From: Chloroflexota bacterium
GTDB lineage: Bacteria; Chloroflexota; UBA6077; JAJPHF01
Reading direction: 5' to 3'
Assembly (NCBI GenBank): GCA_019686175.1
Contig: JADGHJ010000008.1
Span: 1 to 34,160 of the forward strand
DNA: 34,160 bases
The position numbers were made by a program, and so were the translations under genes. Under the pieces are notes generated by a model that saw only the letters and a list, made by a program, of their open reading frames with translations, searched no databases and was not told the origin of the DNA. Of the stretch, positions 26,519-34,160 are shown one piece after another (position 1 is the first letter of the stretch; each line of letters begins with the position of its first letter).

Positions 26519-27979
26519 TCACACCTTGCGCCAGCCCGAGAGGGCGACCGCGGTGACGTCGTGCTGTGCACCCACCCTCGCACCACTCGCCGTCGAGCGA
26601 TCCAGGCCTGGCGCCCAGCGCTGCACCACACGGTCGCCGCGCGCGCGGTTCCACAGGCTGACCGCGGAGTGAGCGACAATGAACAGGTGTTGCCAGATGC
26701 TCCAGTTCCGCACCCAATAGACGTCTGCCAGGACCTGCTCCTCCTCGGGCAGGTGCTGGGGCACCAGGCGCCACGGCCCGGTGAGCCCGGGCTTGACCGA
26801 CAGCAGCATGCTCGCCCAGCAACCCAGTCGGTCGGCCTGGGAAAGCGGGATCGGGCGCGGGCCGGCCAGTGAACAGTCGCCCCGCAGCACGGCCAGCAGT
26901 GCTGGCGCTCCCCGCAGCAGCAGCCGGTCGGTAACGGCGGCGTCCAGCAAATGCAGGACCACGGGGCGACCGTGCTGGCCCAGCACGCGTTCCGTTACTA
27001 GCAACGGTCGCCTACCCCGCAGCCAGGCCCAGCCAAGCAGTAGCCCCAGTGCCGGGGCCACGAGCGGCAGCAGCAGCGCGGCCAGACCGACGTCCGCACA
27101 GCGACAGAGGATGGCGTCGATGCCCACCAGCCGAGCCGGATGCACCCGCACCAGTGGCACGAACCCGAGCGGAGCCGGCTGGAGCTGTGCCGCATCCAGA
27201 TCGTAGTGGGTGGGCGCGAGGCGTACCTCCAGCCCCTGCGGCGGCCGCTCGGCCAGCCGCACGATGCTCTGCTGGCTCTCCCAGCTCATCGCGGCGGGCA
27301 CGGCGATCACCAGGTCGGCGCCGGTCTCCGCGACGATGGTCTGGGTGTCGCGCGGATGCCCAAGGACGGCGAAGTCGGTCGTGGCGTGCCCGTTCGAGGA
27401 CCAGGCCCTGATGCGGGTTCCTGGCCCCACGTAGTCGTCGAGCAGGCCGAGGACTTCCACGCCCTGCCGCTGCGGCCCGTGGAGCTGTTGGGCGATCGCC
27501 AGCCCTTGGTCGCTCGCGCCCACGATCAACACACGACGGACGAACAGCCCGCGCCGCCGCAGGGCGTAGGCCACGCGCCGCAGCAGGAACCGTCCCGCTC
27601 CCACCAGGGCGATGGCCAGCACCCAGAAGAACAAGAGCCAGCCGCGGGACACCACCGGTAGCGAGCCGTTGACGTAGCTCACGCCCACTACCAGCAGCGT
27701 GCCGTAGGTGCAGCCGCCAGCGATACACGCATACTCCTCTGGGCCGCCCAGCAGAATGCGTGGGCGGTAGGCGCCGCGCAGCCAGAAAATGAGCAACAGC
27801 CCCGGAATGACCGCGGCCGCGACGAGGCTGTAATGCTCGGTGGCGAACTGCGGCTGCACCGGCAGGACATCCACCGCGCTCCGCAGCCACGCGGCGCCCA
27901 CGAATGCCAGTGCCATCAATAGCGCATCGGCCACCACCAGCGCCGCGATGTACGCACCCATCACTCGATCTCTAGACAT
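26519..27979 (-). CDS. Exopolysaccharide polyprenyl glycosylphosphotransferase-like protein (WbaP/CpsE-type architecture, degenerate catalytic motif)
   Basis: N-terminal TM bundle plus CoA-binding-like 'RVLIVGASDQGLAIAQQL'; C-terminal 'LRGDCSLAGPRPIPLSQAD...LLSVKPGLTGPWRL...YWVRNWSIWQHLFIV'. The normal LDELPQ is replaced (see finding). ATG 27979 overlaps the hddA-like stop. Confidence 0.8.
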   Translation of the reverse strand: MSRDRVMGAYIAALVVADALLMALAFVGAAWLRSAVDVLPVQPQFATEHYSLVAAAVIPGLLLIFWLRGAYRPRILLGGPEEYACIAGGCTYGTLLVVGVSYVNGSLPVVSRGWLLFFWVLAIALVGAGRFLLRRVAYALRRRGLFVRRVLIVGASDQGLAIAQQLHGPQRQGVEVLGLLDDYVGPGTRIRAWSSNGHATTDFAVLGHPRDTQTIVAETGADLVIAVPAAMSWESQQSIVRLAERPPQGLEVRLAPTHYDLDAAQLQPAPLGFVPLVRVHPARLVGIDAILCRCADVGLAALLLPLVAPALGLLLGWAWLRGRRPLLVTERVLGQHGRPVVLHLLDAAVTDRLLLRGAPALLAVLRGDCSLAGPRPIPLSQADRLGCWASMLLSVKPGLTGPWRLVPQHLPEEEQVLADVYWVRNWSIWQHLFIVAHSAVSLWNRARGDRVVQRWAPGLDRSTASGARVGAQHDVTAVALSGWRKV

Positions 27980-29036
27980 GGGCCCCAGCCACCTCCCGTA
28001 GCGCCCACCTGGGATGTGGCGCCGGCCGCGCCATGGCGTTCACGAGGACTTGCGCCCCGCCACGCTCGAACCGGTAGGTCATCCGGAACAGCCCGGCGCG
28101 CTCAAGGGCGTCCGTCACCGCTGCCTGGTGGGTCGGCTCGCAGTACAGCATCAGGAAGCCGCCGCCGCCAGCTCCTGCGAGCTTGCCACCCACTGCGCCA
28201 TGACGCCGCGCGAGCTCGTACAGCTCGTCGATCTTGGCGTTCGAGATCCCCGCCGCCAGGCGTTTCTTCTGCTCCCACGACTCGGCCAGGATCTCCGCGT
28301 AGTACCGCACGTCCCCGCGCTGCAGGCAGCGCAGTGTCTCGTGGGCGGCTTCCTTGATGCGGTGCAAGGCGGCCACCGCCGCGCCCTGGTCGTCGGTGCT
28401 CGCCTGGCGCTGCTCGCGCAAGATGCTGTTCGCGCTGCGCGCCGCCCCGGTGAAGAAGAGCAGCAGGCACGCCTGGAGCCGTGCGATGGTCTCGGGCGCG
28501 ACGCGCAGGGGCTCCACCAGCACCGCCTCACGCGTGAACGTGATGGCATTGAGCCCACCGAAGGCCGCCGCGTACTGGTCCTGCTTGCCGATGGGCGACC
28601 GCAGGCGCTCCAACTCGAGCACGCAGGCCAGATGGGCGACCTCCGCTGGCGACAGCGTGAGCCCGCGCAAGGTGGACAGGGCCTTGACGAGCGCGACAGC
28701 CACCGTGCTCGACGACCCGAGCCCGGTGCCCGGTGGGACTTCCGAGGCCAGGAAGAGCGAGAGCCCGGTGAAGCAGCCGAACTCGTGCAGGGCCGCCTTC
28801 ACGAGACCGAGGTCGCCATCCCACAGCGGCGGCATCCCGTGTCGGTGCCGCGAGAACAGCCGATAATCGGACGAGCTGATCTGGACGTCGTCGGGCTCGC
28901 TGCGGGTCACGAACACATAGAAGTACTTGTCGATGGTGGTCGAGACGACCAGGCCACCATGCCGCTCGTAGTAGGCGGGAAGGTCGGTACCACCGCCGGC
29001 CAAACTGATGCGTACAGGAGCACGGACGATCAGCAT
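27972..29036 (-). CDS. hddA: GHMP kinase, D-glycero-D-manno-heptose-7-phosphate kinase-like
   Basis: 'MLIVRAPVRISLAGGGTDLPAYYERHGGLVVSTTIDKYFYVFV', 'EVPPGTGLGSSSTVAVALVKAL', 'ELERLRSPIGKQDQYAAAFGGLNAITF', 'GGKLAGAGGGGFLMLYCE'. ATG 29036. Confidence 0.88.
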   Translation of the reverse strand: MLIVRAPVRISLAGGGTDLPAYYERHGGLVVSTTIDKYFYVFVTRSEPDDVQISSSDYRLFSRHRHGMPPLWDGDLGLVKAALHEFGCFTGLSLFLASEVPPGTGLGSSSTVAVALVKALSTLRGLTLSPAEVAHLACVLELERLRSPIGKQDQYAAAFGGLNAITFTREAVLVEPLRVAPETIARLQACLLLFFTGAARSANSILREQRQASTDDQGAAVAALHRIKEAAHETLRCLQRGDVRYYAEILAESWEQKKRLAAGISNAKIDELYELARRHGAVGGKLAGAGGGGFLMLYCEPTHQAAVTDALERAGLFRMTYRFERGGAQVLVNAMARPAPHPRWALREVAGAHV

Positions 29037-29048
29037 GCTACCGCCATT

Positions 29049-29185
29049 CCCGGCAGGGCCGGGCCTCGATGTGCGCGCCCCGAGGCGGACGCGCCTATGC
29101 AGTTGCCGGGCGCGGCCCCGCGAATTGCACGGGGCCGCCGGACCCGGCACGCCTGCCGTGGCACCCGGCCACCAAGCTGGCCGGG
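29049..29185 (-). promoter_or_regulatory. Cluster of four stable RNA hairpins in the 164-nt gap between the nucleotidyltransferase-NusG fusion and the hddA-like gene
   Basis: Perfect or near-perfect inverted repeats read directly: 29164-29171/29178-29185 (CCCGGCCA/TGGCCGGG); 29105-29110/29143-29148 (GCCGGG/CCCGGC) enclosing 29112-29120/29130-29138 (GCGGCCCCG/CGGGGCCGC); 29063-29068/29081-29086 (GCCTCG/CGAGGC); 29049-29054/29058-29063 (CCCGGC/GCCGGG). Confidence 0.6.
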
Positions 29186-29200
29186 CGCCGTGGCGAGGGG

Positions 29201-30436
29201 TCAGATCGCGTAGCGGAGCGCGTTCATCTCCAGCGTGACGGGCACGAGCCGGCTGAGCAATTGGACGAATACGCGGGCTCGCACGCCGCCGGAGCACTCC
29301 GCGTCGAAAATCGCGTCCAATTCACGGAACGGGCCGCGAGCGATGCGGACCTTCTGGCCGCGGACGAAGGGGACGCGCGCACGCTCCTCGCACCGGTCGC
29401 GAATGTCCTCGACCAAGGCGTCGGGCACCGGCTGTGGGCCGGCGTCGCTACCCAAGAGGTACACCACGTTCGGCGCCGAGCGTGCGCGCAGCAGCGCGTC
29501 GTCGCGGTTGTCGGACCGCACGAACAGATAGCCGGGAAACAGGACCTCGCGCTCCTCGCCGCCCCGCCGCCGGCGCCGCCACTCGGGCAGGTAGGCGCGC
29601 AGACCGCGGCTCTCGATCGCCATCGCGGCCAATCGCTCGGCGCGCGGCCGTGTGCGTGCCACGAACCAACGGTAGGCCAGCGGGCCGGCGGCAGGGTTGC
29701 AGCGCCCGGCGCGCAGGTCGTCGTCGGCCTGCGCGTAGCGCTCGAGCGAGCCGACGTCCAGCACGTAGCTGTCGGTCCGGTAACCGTAGAGGGCCGCCCC
29801 GCGCTGCAGCAGCGCCGGAAACACCTCGTGCCCGAAGTCGCACGGCCGCCCCGGTGGGATCGCGTCCAGTACCGTGGGCTCCAGCACATACACGCCCGCG
29901 TTGGCCAGCCGTCCGAGGCCGGCGTCCGGCGCGGGCTTCTCCACGAACCGCGTGATGCGGTCGTCCGCGGCCAGCTCGACGATGCCGCAGCGGCTGGGCT
30001 CGTCCACCTCGTACAGCGCCACCGTGGCGCAGGCGTCGAGCGCGCGGTGGCGCTCCAGCAGGGCCGTCAGGTTCAGATCCGTCAGCACGTCCCCGTACAG
30101 CACCAGGAACGTATCGTCGAAAAACCACGCCAGCTCGCGAACGGCGCCCGCGGTGCCGAGCAGGGTGGGCTCGTAAGAGTAGGTGAGCCGCACGCCGAAC
30201 GCGGCACCATCGCCGAAGTACCGCGTGATCACGTCGGGACAGTGGTGCAGGTTGATGGCGATGTCCCGGATGCCGTGCTCCCGCAGCAGGACCAGTTGGT
30301 GTGCGAGAATCGGCCGGTCCGCAGCCGGCAGCATCGGCTTCGGGCAGGTGTCGGTCAGTGGCCGCAGGCGCGTCCCCGCGCCAGCGGCGAGGATCAACGC
30401 ACGCGGCGCGTCGCTGGGGCTGCGACGAGTGGCCAT
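29201..30436 (-). CDS. Fusion protein: N-terminal sugar-1-phosphate nucleotidyltransferase (HddC/GDP-heptose pyrophosphorylase-like) plus C-terminal NusG/RfaH-like transcription elongation/antitermination (NGN-KOW) domain
   Basis: N-term 'RALILAAGAGTRLRPLTDTCPKPMLPAADRPILAHQLVLLREHGIRDIAINLHH'...'FLVLYGDVLTDLNL'...'ITRFVEKPAP'...'YVLDVGSLERYAQADDDL'; C-term 'YRWFVARTRPRAERLAAMAIESRGLRAYLPEWRRRRRGGEEREVLFPGYLFVRSDNRDDALLRARSAPNVVYLLG...PVPDALVEDIRDRCEE...FVRGQKVRIARGPFRELDAIFDAECSGGVRARVFVQLLSRLVPVTLE'. Single open frame; ATG 30436. Confidence 0.88.
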   Translation of the reverse strand: MATRRSPSDAPRALILAAGAGTRLRPLTDTCPKPMLPAADRPILAHQLVLLREHGIRDIAINLHHCPDVITRYFGDGAAFGVRLTYSYEPTLLGTAGAVRELAWFFDDTFLVLYGDVLTDLNLTALLERHRALDACATVALYEVDEPSRCGIVELAADDRITRFVEKPAPDAGLGRLANAGVYVLEPTVLDAIPPGRPCDFGHEVFPALLQRGAALYGYRTDSYVLDVGSLERYAQADDDLRAGRCNPAAGPLAYRWFVARTRPRAERLAAMAIESRGLRAYLPEWRRRRRGGEEREVLFPGYLFVRSDNRDDALLRARSAPNVVYLLGSDAGPQPVPDALVEDIRDRCEERARVPFVRGQKVRIARGPFRELDAIFDAECSGGVRARVFVQLLSRLVPVTLEMNALRYAI

Positions 30437-30449
30437 AGGGAGCGACCTC

Positions 30450-31049
30450 CTAGCCGGCGACTGGGGCCCTGGCGGGCTCGCGCTGGAGCGCCTGCCGGAG
30501 GGCTCGCGTGAGCGCGTGCCCGATCGCCATGTGGGTGTCCTCGACGAGCCCGTAATTGTCGAACGGCACGTGGATCGCGATCTCGACCAGCGAGAGCGCG
30601 CGACCGCCATCGAACCCGAGCAGGCCGATGGTCCGGGCGCCGATCGCCTGGGCCGCTTGCAAGCCCGCGACGATGTTGGGCGAGTTGCCGCTCGAGCTGA
30701 TGGCGATCACTACGTCGCCCGGCTCGACCAGCGCGTGGATCTGCCGCGCGAAGATCTGGTCGTAGGCGGTATCGTTCGCCCAGGCGGTGAGCGAGGGAGT
30801 GTTGTCGGTGAGCGCGAACGCCCGCAGGGGCTCGTAGCCCGCGACCTGGGCCGTCTTGACCAGGTTGCAGACGAACTGACTGGCGATCGCCGCGCTGCCG
30901 CCGTTGCCCATGACGTAGACGCGACGGCCGGTGGCGCGCGCCTCCAGCAGGGCGTCGAGCGCCGCTTCCAGGGGCTCCGGCGGCACCGAGCGCAGCACGG
31001 CGCCCAGCTCGCCGAGGTAGTCGACCGCGGTGGCCGCAGATCCGTTCAT
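30450..31049 (-). CDS. gmhA: SIS-domain phosphoheptose isomerase-like protein
   Basis: 'RRVYVMGNGGSAAIASQFVCNLVKTAQV', 'WANDTAYDQIFARQIHALVEPGDVVIAISSSGNSPNIVAGLQAAQAIGARTIGLLGFDGG', 'LVEDTHMAIGHAL'. Confidence 0.85.
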   Translation of the reverse strand: MNGSAATAVDYLGELGAVLRSVPPEPLEAALDALLEARATGRRVYVMGNGGSAAIASQFVCNLVKTAQVAGYEPLRAFALTDNTPSLTAWANDTAYDQIFARQIHALVEPGDVVIAISSSGNSPNIVAGLQAAQAIGARTIGLLGFDGGRALSLVEIAIHVPFDNYGLVEDTHMAIGHALTRALRQALQREPARAPVAG

Positions 31050-31118: not shown

Positions 31119-31267
31119 CTCCCGCCGTGCGCGGTGCCTCGCGGTCCCACGAGGAGCAGCCGATGCGACGACTGCACGGCGAGGGCGGACTGCGAGCGCT
31201 CCTCCTGCGGCGGACCCGCCGGTGGCAGCCGGGGTGGGTCCGCGAAGTATTCCGGCGCGATGTCTCC
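31119..31267 (-). ncRNA. Leader element copy B, candidate structured cis-regulatory RNA upstream of the gmhA-like gene
   Basis: Shares ordered blocks with 33788-33938 on the minus strand: GGAGAC; hairpin with CUGCCA loop (31210-31243); identical GGAGGAGCGCTCGCA (31191-31205); CCTCGTGGGACC..AGGCAC (31134-31154); CGCGCACGGCGGGAG (31119-31133). Confidence 0.55.
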
Positions 31268-31306
31268 TTTCGACCCTTTGCGGCGGTCGGGTCGTCCTCG
31301 GCCCGC

Positions 31307-33778
31307 CTACGGCCGTGGCAGCAGCACCGGCTCGATCGCCGGGCCTCCGGTTGCCGCCGTGGCGGATCCGCCGCCCGAGCCGCCGACCACGGCCCCCAAC
31401 GGACCTGATGCCCGGTCGCGACGCGAGGTCAGGGGGCGCGTGCCATCGGCAGCTTGCTGGCTGTCGCGCACCGGCAGGTTGATGGTGGCCGTCATGCCCA
31501 GGCGCACTGTCGGCGGGATCCGATTCAGATCCACCCGGACAGGGAACACCACCCGATCACCCTGCCGCACGGCGGCCGCACTGACATCCACGATCGTGCC
31601 GAGCACCGGGTCGCTGGACATCCCTGGGAACTCGATCTGCACCACTTGCTCCGGCGCCAGGCGCGTCACTTCCCACTCCGAGACGTTCGCCAGCACCGAC
31701 ACGCGACCGGGATCGTCCAGGCGCACCACGGGCGCGCGTGCCTCCACAGGCTGATTGGGTGCCACCTCGATCGTGGTCACGGTCCCATCGAACGGCGCGG
31801 TGAGGGTGACCACGGGCTGCGCGGCGGCGCGGGCGGCGACCGCCTCGGCCTGGAGCAGCGCGGCGCGCCGCTCCTCGTTCTGGATCACCTGCGCTGAGTA
31901 GGCGGCGCTCTCCATCTCTCGCAGCCGCGCCTCGGCGGCGCGCAGCGCGTCCCGCGCCGCAGCCACCTGGAGGTCCGGGACGCCCTGGCGCGAGGCGTTG
32001 CCCGCTTCGACGCGCTGTTCGCTGGCGCGCGCCTGCTGCAAGCGCAGGGTTGCCTCGGCGAGCTTGCGCTCGGCGACACGCACGGCAAAAGCGGTGGCGC
32101 TGGCCGAGGCCTGCGCGGCCTCGCTATCACGGCGGGCGGCCAGCTCCGCCTGCGCCTGGGCTGCTGCCAGGTCGTCCTGGGCCTGGTTGAGCGCGAGCTC
32201 GGCCAGGCGCATCTCGGCGTCGGTCGGTCCGGCGGGCGCGGCCTCTAGCTGCTGCAGCCGGAGCTGTGCATCCTCCACGCGGCGCTCTGCTGCCCGCACC
32301 GTGACAGCTGCAGTGGGGAACCCGTTGCGCGCCTCCTCCTCCGCCTGGCGCGAGGCCGCCTGCGCGGTGGCCTGGGCGCGCACCAGGTTCTCCTGGGCGG
32401 CCTCGAGATCCATCTGCGCGATCTGGCGCTCCGCGTTGCGCGCCGCCAGGGCCGCGGGGTCGGCCTCGACGGGTTGGTTGAGCCGCTCCAGGCGCTGCGA
32501 CGCCTCCAACAGGTTGCGCTCCGCGCTCCGCACGCTGGCGATCGCGTCCGCGACCCCCACCGGCGAGGCCGGCGCCGGCGTGGCCGTGGGGGCGGCGCCG
32601 GGAGTACCTACGGCCCGCTGCTCCCCCAGCGCGCCATCGATGCGGATCACGCCGTTGGCACTCGGGCGCGTCTGTTGCTCGGCCTGGCGCTGTCGGAGGT
32701 TCGCCTGGGCCTGCGCGAGCTGGGCCTGCGCCTCGGCCACCTCGGCCCGGGCTAGTTGCCGGTCGCCATCGCGCGCGTTGGTCGTGCGCTGCTCGGCCGC
32801 GCGGGCCGCGTCCAGCCGGAGGGCAGCGACCGCGACTTGGCGCTCCGCCGCCCGCACGGCCGCGGCCGCGGCATCGGGCGCCTGCGCCGTCTCGTCGGCC
32901 GTGCGCTGGGCCACCTGGCGGGCGCGGGCCAGCTCCTCCTGGGCCTGCGCCAGCTCGTTCTGGGCGCGCTGGATCTCGATGGCCCGGCCGGCGGCGGCGC
33001 GCTCGCGCTCCGCCTGGAGCTGCTGGATCCGCAGCTGGGCCTCCTCGACCCGACGCTGAGCTGTCCGCAGCGAGGTGGCAGATGAGGAGGACTCTTGCTC
33101 CTGCGCGCGCCGCGCCGCGGCCTGAGCGTTGGCCAGCTCGTCGGTGGCTTGGTCCACGGCCAGCTTGGCGAGCTGCACCTCGATGCTGGGCCCCCCGTCG
33201 GGGCGCGCCGCATCGCGCGCCAGCTCCGCCTCGAGCAGAGCCGCGCGGGCCCGGGTGACCGCCGCCCGCGCCTCCTCCACGGAAGCGGCGCTCGTGCCGC
33301 GGCGCAGCTCGTCGACCCGCGCGAGCTGGCTCTGGTAGGCCAGCTCGGCCACCGTGGCCTGGGTCTGGGCCGCGCGCAGCGTGGCCTCGTCGAGGGTCAG
33401 GTCCACTAGCGGCTCGCCAGCTTTCACCTCCTGGCCGGTGCGCACGTACACGGTCCGCACCGTCCCACCTGTGCGGAACGATAGCTGCGCGGTGCGCGCG
33501 GGCACGACCTGGCCGGTGAAGGAGAGGAAATCCTGCCGGGGCTCCGTCTGGGCCGACCCGGCGGGTGGCGGCGTGCTGTCCGCCGAAGCGTTCGGGCCGG
33601 CCCCGGTCGTCGGCAGCGGGGTGCGCGCGAGGCTACCGAGCTGGCCGCCGCGCTCGTCGGGGGCCGGCGGCAGAAGTTGACACGCCGCGACGCCGAGTCC
33701 CAGCGCTACCGAGGCACACCATACCCAGACCCGGATCCGACAACGCCTGGCCGTAGGAGCGCCTCGTAAGGATGCCAT
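31307..33778 (-). CDS. HlyD-family membrane-fusion/adaptor lipoprotein with greatly extended coiled-coil
   Basis: Lipobox 'ALGLGVAACQLLPP'; 'FTGQVVPARTAQLSFRTGGTVRTVYVRTGQEVKAGEPLVDL' lipoyl-like half; ~550 aa Ala/Gln/Arg-rich heptad region; 'VVTLTAPFDGTVTTIEVAPNQPVEARAPVVRLDDPGRVSVLANVSEWEV' and 'VFPVRVDLNRIPPTVRLGMTATINLPV' beta-barrel. ATG 33778 with GAGGAG RBS. Confidence 0.88.
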   Translation of the reverse strand: MASLRGAPTARRCRIRVWVWCASVALGLGVAACQLLPPAPDERGGQLGSLARTPLPTTGAGPNASADSTPPPAGSAQTEPRQDFLSFTGQVVPARTAQLSFRTGGTVRTVYVRTGQEVKAGEPLVDLTLDEATLRAAQTQATVAELAYQSQLARVDELRRGTSAASVEEARAAVTRARAALLEAELARDAARPDGGPSIEVQLAKLAVDQATDELANAQAAARRAQEQESSSSATSLRTAQRRVEEAQLRIQQLQAERERAAAGRAIEIQRAQNELAQAQEELARARQVAQRTADETAQAPDAAAAAVRAAERQVAVAALRLDAARAAEQRTTNARDGDRQLARAEVAEAQAQLAQAQANLRQRQAEQQTRPSANGVIRIDGALGEQRAVGTPGAAPTATPAPASPVGVADAIASVRSAERNLLEASQRLERLNQPVEADPAALAARNAERQIAQMDLEAAQENLVRAQATAQAASRQAEEEARNGFPTAAVTVRAAERRVEDAQLRLQQLEAAPAGPTDAEMRLAELALNQAQDDLAAAQAQAELAARRDSEAAQASASATAFAVRVAERKLAEATLRLQQARASEQRVEAGNASRQGVPDLQVAAARDALRAAEARLREMESAAYSAQVIQNEERRAALLQAEAVAARAAAQPVVTLTAPFDGTVTTIEVAPNQPVEARAPVVRLDDPGRVSVLANVSEWEVTRLAPEQVVQIEFPGMSSDPVLGTIVDVSAAAVRQGDRVVFPVRVDLNRIPPTVRLGMTATINLPVRDSQQAADGTRPLTSRRDRASGPLGAVVGGSGGGSATAATGGPAIEPVLLPRP

Positions 33779-33787
33779 GGCTCCTCA

Positions 33788-33938
33788 CTCCCGCTGTGCG
33801 CGTTGCAGCCAGTCAGTCGGGCGTGCCTGGTGGTTCCCGCGAGGCGCAGGGCACACGGTAGGGGCGTGCGAGCGCTCCTCCGCGGCGCCAGCCCAGTGGC
33901 AGCTGGACTGGTCGCGCCTGGCCGCCGGGAAGGTCTCC
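33788..33938 (-). ncRNA. Leader element copy A, candidate structured cis-regulatory RNA in the 5' leader of the HlyD-like gene
   Basis: Same block order and near-identical length as copy B: GGAGAC; long hairpin 33884-33918 with CUGCCA loop; GGAGGAGCGCTCGCA (33867-33881); CCTCGCGGGAACC..AGGCAC (33823-33844); CGCGCACAGCGGGAG (33788-33802). Confidence 0.55.
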
Positions 33939-34097: not shown

Positions 34098-34160
34098 CTA
34101 CTCCGCGCGGAAGCGATACCCGATGCGGGGCTCAGTGAGGATGTAGATGGGGTGGGCGGG
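34098..34160 (-). CDS. Response regulator, OmpR/KdpE-type winged-helix C-terminus (partial, runs off window edge)
   Basis: Minus-strand translation of 34160->34098: PAHPIYILTEPRIGYRFRAE-stop, the typical end of the Trans_reg_C domain ('YILTEPGVGYRF'). Confidence 0.75.
   Translation of the reverse strand, partial: PAHPIYILTEPRIGYRFRAE

Follow-up and report, generated by a model that had tools for sequence, protein, structure and literature searches.

The minus strand of the window, by which we mean the whole stretch of 34,160 nt analysed here, carries one long heptose/exopolysaccharide gene cluster that holds two copies, A and B, of a structured element. All window features described below lie on this strand. 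The end of an OmpR-type response regulator-like gene (34101-34160, read from the sequence) precedes the leader with copy A, and the gene downstream of copy A encodes a HlyD-like/periplasmic adaptor protein (31307-33778; PF13437, 1.5e-10; TIGR01730, 4e-23). Copy B is located between this gene and a gmhA-like gene for a SIS-domain isomerase (30450-31049; PF13580, 1.9e-21, together with phosphoheptose isomerase models). The cluster continues with a gene encoding a nucleotidyltransferase fused to a NusG paralog (29201-30436; PF00483, 1.2e-47; PF02357, 3.6e-15; start codon inferred) and with a GHMP kinase (HddA-like) gene (27972-29297; PF00288, 4.5e-18), beyond which a sugar transferase and more glycan genes are found. 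The joint presence of GmhA-, HddA- and HddC-like genes suggests a GDP-heptose pathway.

The core of copy A, composed of the helices P1 and P2, lies at 33848-33918 in the leader of the hlyD-like gene, 69 nt 5' of its ATG; that of copy B lies at 31168-31246. The P1 hairpin of copy A (33888-33911) has 9 bp, is unbulged and exposes the loop CTGCCA (33897-33902), while that of copy B (31210-31243) has an internal bulge and the same loop (31223-31228). In both copies the hairpin is followed by an identical 15-mer, GGAGGAGCGCTCGCA, found at 33867-33881 in copy A, where it forms the 5' side and loop of P2, and at 31191-31205 in copy B. The alignment of the two cores scores 48, a value reached by none of 2000 paired dinucleotide shuffles. 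The two hairpins, their order and the 15-mer had all been reported in a preliminary description of this region and stand as given there. Other parts of that description changed: the proposed length of about 150 nt shrinks to a conserved unit of about 80 nt, and instead of two copies the genome has at least three and the class at least eight. A GGAGAC block at the 5' end, also assigned to the element, is best attributed to chance, since the similarity of that region was equalled in 1817 of 2000 shuffles; a third copy, C, lacks GGAGAC at this place.

The blocks described on the 3' side had a mixed fate. Those of copy A, CCTCGCGGGAACC..AGGCAC (33823-33844) and CGCGCACAGCGGGAG (33788-33802), and those of copy B, CCTCGTGGGACCGCGAGGCAC (31134-31154) and CGCGCACGGCGGGAG (31119-31133), are common to A and B only. 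Their similarity is real (local score 28, equalled in 7 of 2000 shuffles), but A and B are the sole sites in the genome of the exact 3' 15-mer CGCGCACRGCGGGAG, so the blocks belong to this operon and not to the element at large. An enclosing stem had also been postulated. Its 8-bp complement, CGCCGTGC/GCACGGCG, does exist in copy B; however, the stem is not formed in unconstrained minimum-energy folds of A and B, is perfect in B alone and is clear in no other member, and it was rejected as a conserved feature.

The exact 15-mer GGAGGAGCGCTCGCA occurs three times in the 4.36-Mb genome, in A, in B and in copy C on another contig (C372), where it is again preceded by a hairpin with the loop CTGCCA and a different stem. 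No clear gene is present in the 570 nt downstream of copy C, at which point the contig ends. The same hairpin and GAGGAGCGCT were also detected in genome G017, upstream of a NusG-paralog gene. A covariance model, R1, was built from A, B, C and the G017 copy; under it copies A and B score 50.3 and 72.6 bits, respectively. Across 29 genomes of the class, R1 detected a member in G002 (42.7 bits, E 4e-6) and lower-scoring, though well-formed, ones in G006 and G013, and near the paralog gene of G003 it detected a member at 19.6 bits. These four were absent from R1 and were later included in a second model, R2 (copy A, 36.5 bits; copy B, 65.7 bits), whose scores for the later members are not independent because R2 was built with them. 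In total there are eight members in six genomes, three in the window genome and one each in five other genomes of the class. Two of the outcomes that would have refuted the preliminary description were checked for and did not occur; related genomes do hold further homologs, and covariation exceeds that of shuffles and slid controls.

The next-best matches of R2 in the 29 class genomes had E-values of at least 0.1, and those checked lay in coding-like frames; the same model, run with stricter filters on 399 genomes of the phylum, found no further members. A scan of these 399 genomes with the pattern CTGCCACYGN{4,34}GAGGAGCGCT gave one credible match outside the window genome, about 270 nt upstream of a paralog gene and ahead of Wzz and glycosyltransferase genes, and three others that read as coding. 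When 85,462 species genomes were scanned with an exact pattern, 32 stretches were returned, only two of which score well by the model, both of them Chloroflexi members already found. Given so few matches in the phylum and in the 85,462-species scan, the element is rare and narrow within the genomes searched, and a genome that has it carries one to three copies. Weak matches to the model in G005, G013 (C326), G011, G022 and G020, and pattern matches in G345, G047 and G013 (C57), lie in or read as coding frames and were not counted.

No family of Rfam 15 matched the window at gathering scores, and a permissive search gave only chance matches for copy B (E 8-9.6) and none for copy A, in line with the earlier remark that the element was not recognised as a known riboswitch. 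Literature searches found no such element. As judged from comparison of its members, the element is a structured leader element, probably an RNA, of about 80 nt that is missing from Rfam, with a well-supported P1 fold and good comparative support.

The core consists of the P1 hairpin, with a CTGCMA loop that shows small variations among members, followed by GAGGAGCGCT...ACACCCCTYGCC closed by P2. P1 is built of an inner helix (3-4 bp) and an outer helix (7-10 bp), usually with two bulged bases on the 5' side. The sequence joining P1 to P2 is short and usually contains GCRGAG. In P2, GGC-N-GAGG is paired with CCTC-GCC around AGCGCT...ACACC, the GAGG lying within GGAGGAGCGCTCGCA and the CCTC downstream of it. 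In an alignment of the eight members fitted to a model, two-sided changes are present at 12 of 19 pairs, amounting to 20 cells against 6.1 in shuffles, none of 500 shuffles being as high; cells are paired in 84.9% of cases against 71.3% in shuffles, and control alignments slid out of register show two-sided change at no more than 5 pairs. Because this alignment was model-fitted, the count was repeated for the five best members, aligned by sequence alone. Two-sided change was found there in 9 of 13 P1 pairs and in none of the 7 P2 pairs, three of which show it in the eight-member alignment; on these comparative grounds P1 is considered firm and P2 moderate. P1 folds predicted singly agree with the consensus, and their folding energies give a combined z of -8.1 over the eight members. 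Whole-region folding energies taken alone are not exceptional, as expected of GC-rich DNA. Pairing is retained through compensatory changes, as in structured cis-regulatory RNAs.

A compensatory change by itself fits RNA or single-stranded DNA alike, and the element could also be read as DNA: a single-stranded or cruciform hairpin of the REP or IS200/605-end kind, or an operator palindrome. We regard this as improbable. There are merely one to three copies per genome, their orientation to genes is fixed, and the arms of P1 are broken by bulges and by a fixed loop. The DNA reading draws some support from copy C, which has the ops-like sequence GGCGGTAGCGTG about 40 nt before its loop (L016/L097 662-673, minus strand). 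We take this sequence to be identical to the ops DNA element of Escherichia coli RfaH. The ops signal is a 12-nt sequence of the non-template DNA strand, whereas the unit conserved here is a two-helix element of about 80 nt, of which copies A and B lack an ops match and copy C has one; nowhere in the window is the ops element GGCGGTAGNNT matched exactly. Across the class the ops-like 12-mer has 39 matches, fewer than a reversed control pattern; it shows no enrichment and was discarded as a class-wide signal. In G002 it is present at C79:40387-40398 (minus strand), its sole copy in that genome, about 300 nt upstream of a NusG paralog gene.

The members lie outside coding sequence. Wherever the downstream gene is known, which is the case for seven copies (copy C is not placeable), the copy stands upstream of it in the sense orientation. 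The genes that follow are diverse. Besides the hlyD-like and gmhA-like genes downstream of A and B, the G017 copy is followed by the NusG paralog, Wzz and a glycosyltransferase, and the G003 copy by the NusG paralog and a SIS isomerase; both of these copies stand about 190-270 nt ahead of a stand-alone RfaH-type NusG paralog. The G002 copy precedes a gene for a 475-aa secreted protein with no Pfam match, the G006 copy precedes genes for a histidine kinase, a response regulator and an epimerase, and in G013 a multicopper-oxidase-like gene lies 448 nt away. The gene order in G003 (GHMP kinase, nucleotidyltransferase, element, NusG paralog, SIS isomerase) represents the window gene set rearranged.

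This position supports the earlier preference for RNA or DNA function over a peptide. The element might be a coding remnant or a leader peptide gene with GGAGGAG as its ribosome-binding site, since this motif is Shine-Dalgarno-like and GC-rich DNA often has long open frames, but we consider this very improbable: the codon-position GC pattern is absent at the members, save for flanking-gene frames that reach B and the G006 copy, no start codon stands at a constant distance, and G002 has GAGAGAT in place of GGAGGAG. A small trans-acting RNA, or a processing or stability element that lies in leaders by chance, would agree with the compact fold of about 80 nt and with the lack of a clear gene within the 570 nt between copy C and the contig end. 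Against it stand the sense orientation and upstream position of all seven copies that can be placed, and the presence of A and B in one gene cluster; we hold it unlikely, if a little less so than the DNA reading.

The NusG paralog is present in 14 of the 29 class genomes, and five of the six element-bearing genomes have both a paralog and a canonical NusG; in the window genome these are the fusion protein and a canonical NusG encoded on contig C33. Among the frames seen, the paralog is fused in frame to the sugar nucleotidyltransferase in the window only and stands alone elsewhere in the class. To judge from gene order, the fusion could have arisen through loss of a G003-like spacer between nucleotidyltransferase and NusG genes. 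The window paralog scores 81.7 bits with the RfaH model, 44.5 with NusG and 36.2 with LoaP (cut-off 125); the ranking is RfaH, UpxY, NusG, LoaP, and since the protein falls under every curated cut-off it is filed as none of the four. In an AlphaFold2 model of the fusion (mean pLDDT 85) the C-terminal part is partly helical, which may point to RfaH-like fold switching. A fold search of the PDB gave the lowest E-values with NusG structures and the highest TM-scores with autoinhibited RfaH.

The paralog gene is located beside or inside the element-bearing operon in the window, in G017 and in G003, and the presence of a NusG-paralog gene in the same operon, overlooked in the preliminary description, points to the likeliest function of the element. 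P1/P2, once transcribed by RNA polymerase, would probably serve to load the RfaH-type NusG paralog, which would then stay with the polymerase and keep it from terminating along the long heptose/exopolysaccharide operon. A further round of loading would take place at copy B, which lies within this operon; copy C and the copies ahead of other operons in relatives would be further members of the regulon. Established here are the conserved sequence, the compensated P1 fold, the sense-upstream position and the paralog neighbourhood; we infer the transcription of the element, its partnership with the paralog, the binding of the latter and antitermination. We favour this loading of the paralog for antitermination tentatively, at somewhat under an even chance.

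Several observations weigh against the partnership. In nine of the 14 paralog-bearing genomes no element is detectable, and scans with filters off around the paralog genes of these element-less genomes revealed none. G013 has the element and only a canonical NusG was found in its 89% complete assembly, although two genomes of its genus do carry the paralog. A neighbouring paralog gene is missing from half of the elements, the detected copies of G002, G006 and G013 having none adjacent, and the association is partly ascertained because it was a search around paralog genes that first brought the G017 and G003 copies to notice. The mostly element-less paralog genomes, the elements away from the paralog and this partial ascertainment keep the partnership tentative and leave considerable weight to a cis-regulatory RNA that is independent of the paralog, that is, a ligand-sensing riboswitch, an attenuator or a self-sufficient RNA for processive antitermination, like EAR or put of phage HK022. 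Such an RNA, which we hold possible but less probable than paralog loading, would suit stems that vary while loop and joining bases are conserved, the varied downstream genes, the lack of the element near most paralog genes and its occurrence in G013, where no paralog was found. However, the sole credible match of the sequence scan outside the window genome adjoins a paralog gene, as does the G003 copy; no Rfam family matched, EAR included; and no alternative terminator/antiterminator pairing is conserved.

For loading of the paralog by the leader RNA, the closest known parallel is LoaP of Bacillus velezensis, which binds an RNA hairpin in the leaders of its targets, the hairpin being needed for antitermination in vivo and in vitro (PMC12691694). 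As in the LoaP-controlled dfn and mln operons, a specialised NusG paralog encoded beside target operons would act together with a small leader RNA hairpin on a long biosynthetic operon. The dfn hairpin is of the UNCG type (PMC12691694), whereas in the element described here the loop is CTGCMA, of six bases and not of the UNCG type, and there are also a bulge and P2 as a second helix. The paralog is also closer to RfaH than to LoaP. With E. coli RfaH it shares the paralog type, the link to polysaccharide operons and, as proposed, action from a leader signal, besides being TM-closest in its predicted fold to the autoinhibited form. In Bacteroides fragilis, the gene of the NusG paralog UpxY lies inside the capsule operon and the protein acts on its own 5' leader (PMC7819879). 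A NusG-paralog gene within a polysaccharide operon is common to both systems, but no common RNA motif is recognised in the UpxY case, and upxY is a separate gene near the leader whereas the window paralog forms one protein with a nucleotidyltransferase, encoded within the operon.

Other RNA elements take part in processive antitermination, such as HK022 put and EAR, the latter in Bacillus exopolysaccharide (eps) operons. EAR and put work without a dedicated NusG paralog, and the Rfam search shows no match to EAR in sequence or structure. The conAn system of pLS20 is a two-part processive antitermination system, formed by a protein and an RNA, at the start of a conjugation operon of more than 30 kb (PMC8955417). 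It resembles the proposed system in that a protein and RNA pair acts at the start of an operon. To our knowledge, ConAn1 and the RfaH-type paralog described here are not the same.

Leader RNAs that work in antitermination are a known kind of element; what appears to be new is this particular RNA, together with its pairing with an RfaH-type paralog. A wider claim would be that an undescribed class of leader RNAs in Chloroflexota is the recognition site of an RfaH-type NusG paralog, which in the window organism is fused to a sugar nucleotidyltransferase of the very operon under its control. LoaP would then be joined by a second NusG-family protein whose recruitment depends on a specific RNA structure. 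This claim is slightly more doubtful than paralog loading at this operon. If true, a second, unrelated RNA element would be tied to RfaH-type paralogs in another phylum, which would suggest more than one origin for the RNA-guided loading of such proteins, and there would be a handle on how long glycan operons are switched on in uncultured Chloroflexota. Even with the wrong partner, the element would be a structured RNA absent from Rfam and comparatively well supported.

Also counting against paralog loading for antitermination, the surroundings of A and B revealed no intrinsic terminator, and no conserved downstream terminator was found across members. Only G017 and G006, and marginally G002, have a conspicuously strong hairpin downstream of the element; between element and gene, G017 (L040 10281-10552, minus strand, z -2.6) and G006 (L089 5178-5290, plus strand, z -3.7) have GC-rich hairpins without T-runs, and no such hairpin was seen at A or B. 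Two-component regulator genes occur near four of the eight copies, namely A, C and those of G006 and G013 (window 34101-34160, minus strand; L097 1560-5818; L089 5217-6835; L090 9135-9959), which may be a coincidence. About 450 nt upstream of copy C there is a short frame (L097 1084-1270, minus strand) with a likely transmembrane segment, within a 900-nt region otherwise devoid of clear genes.
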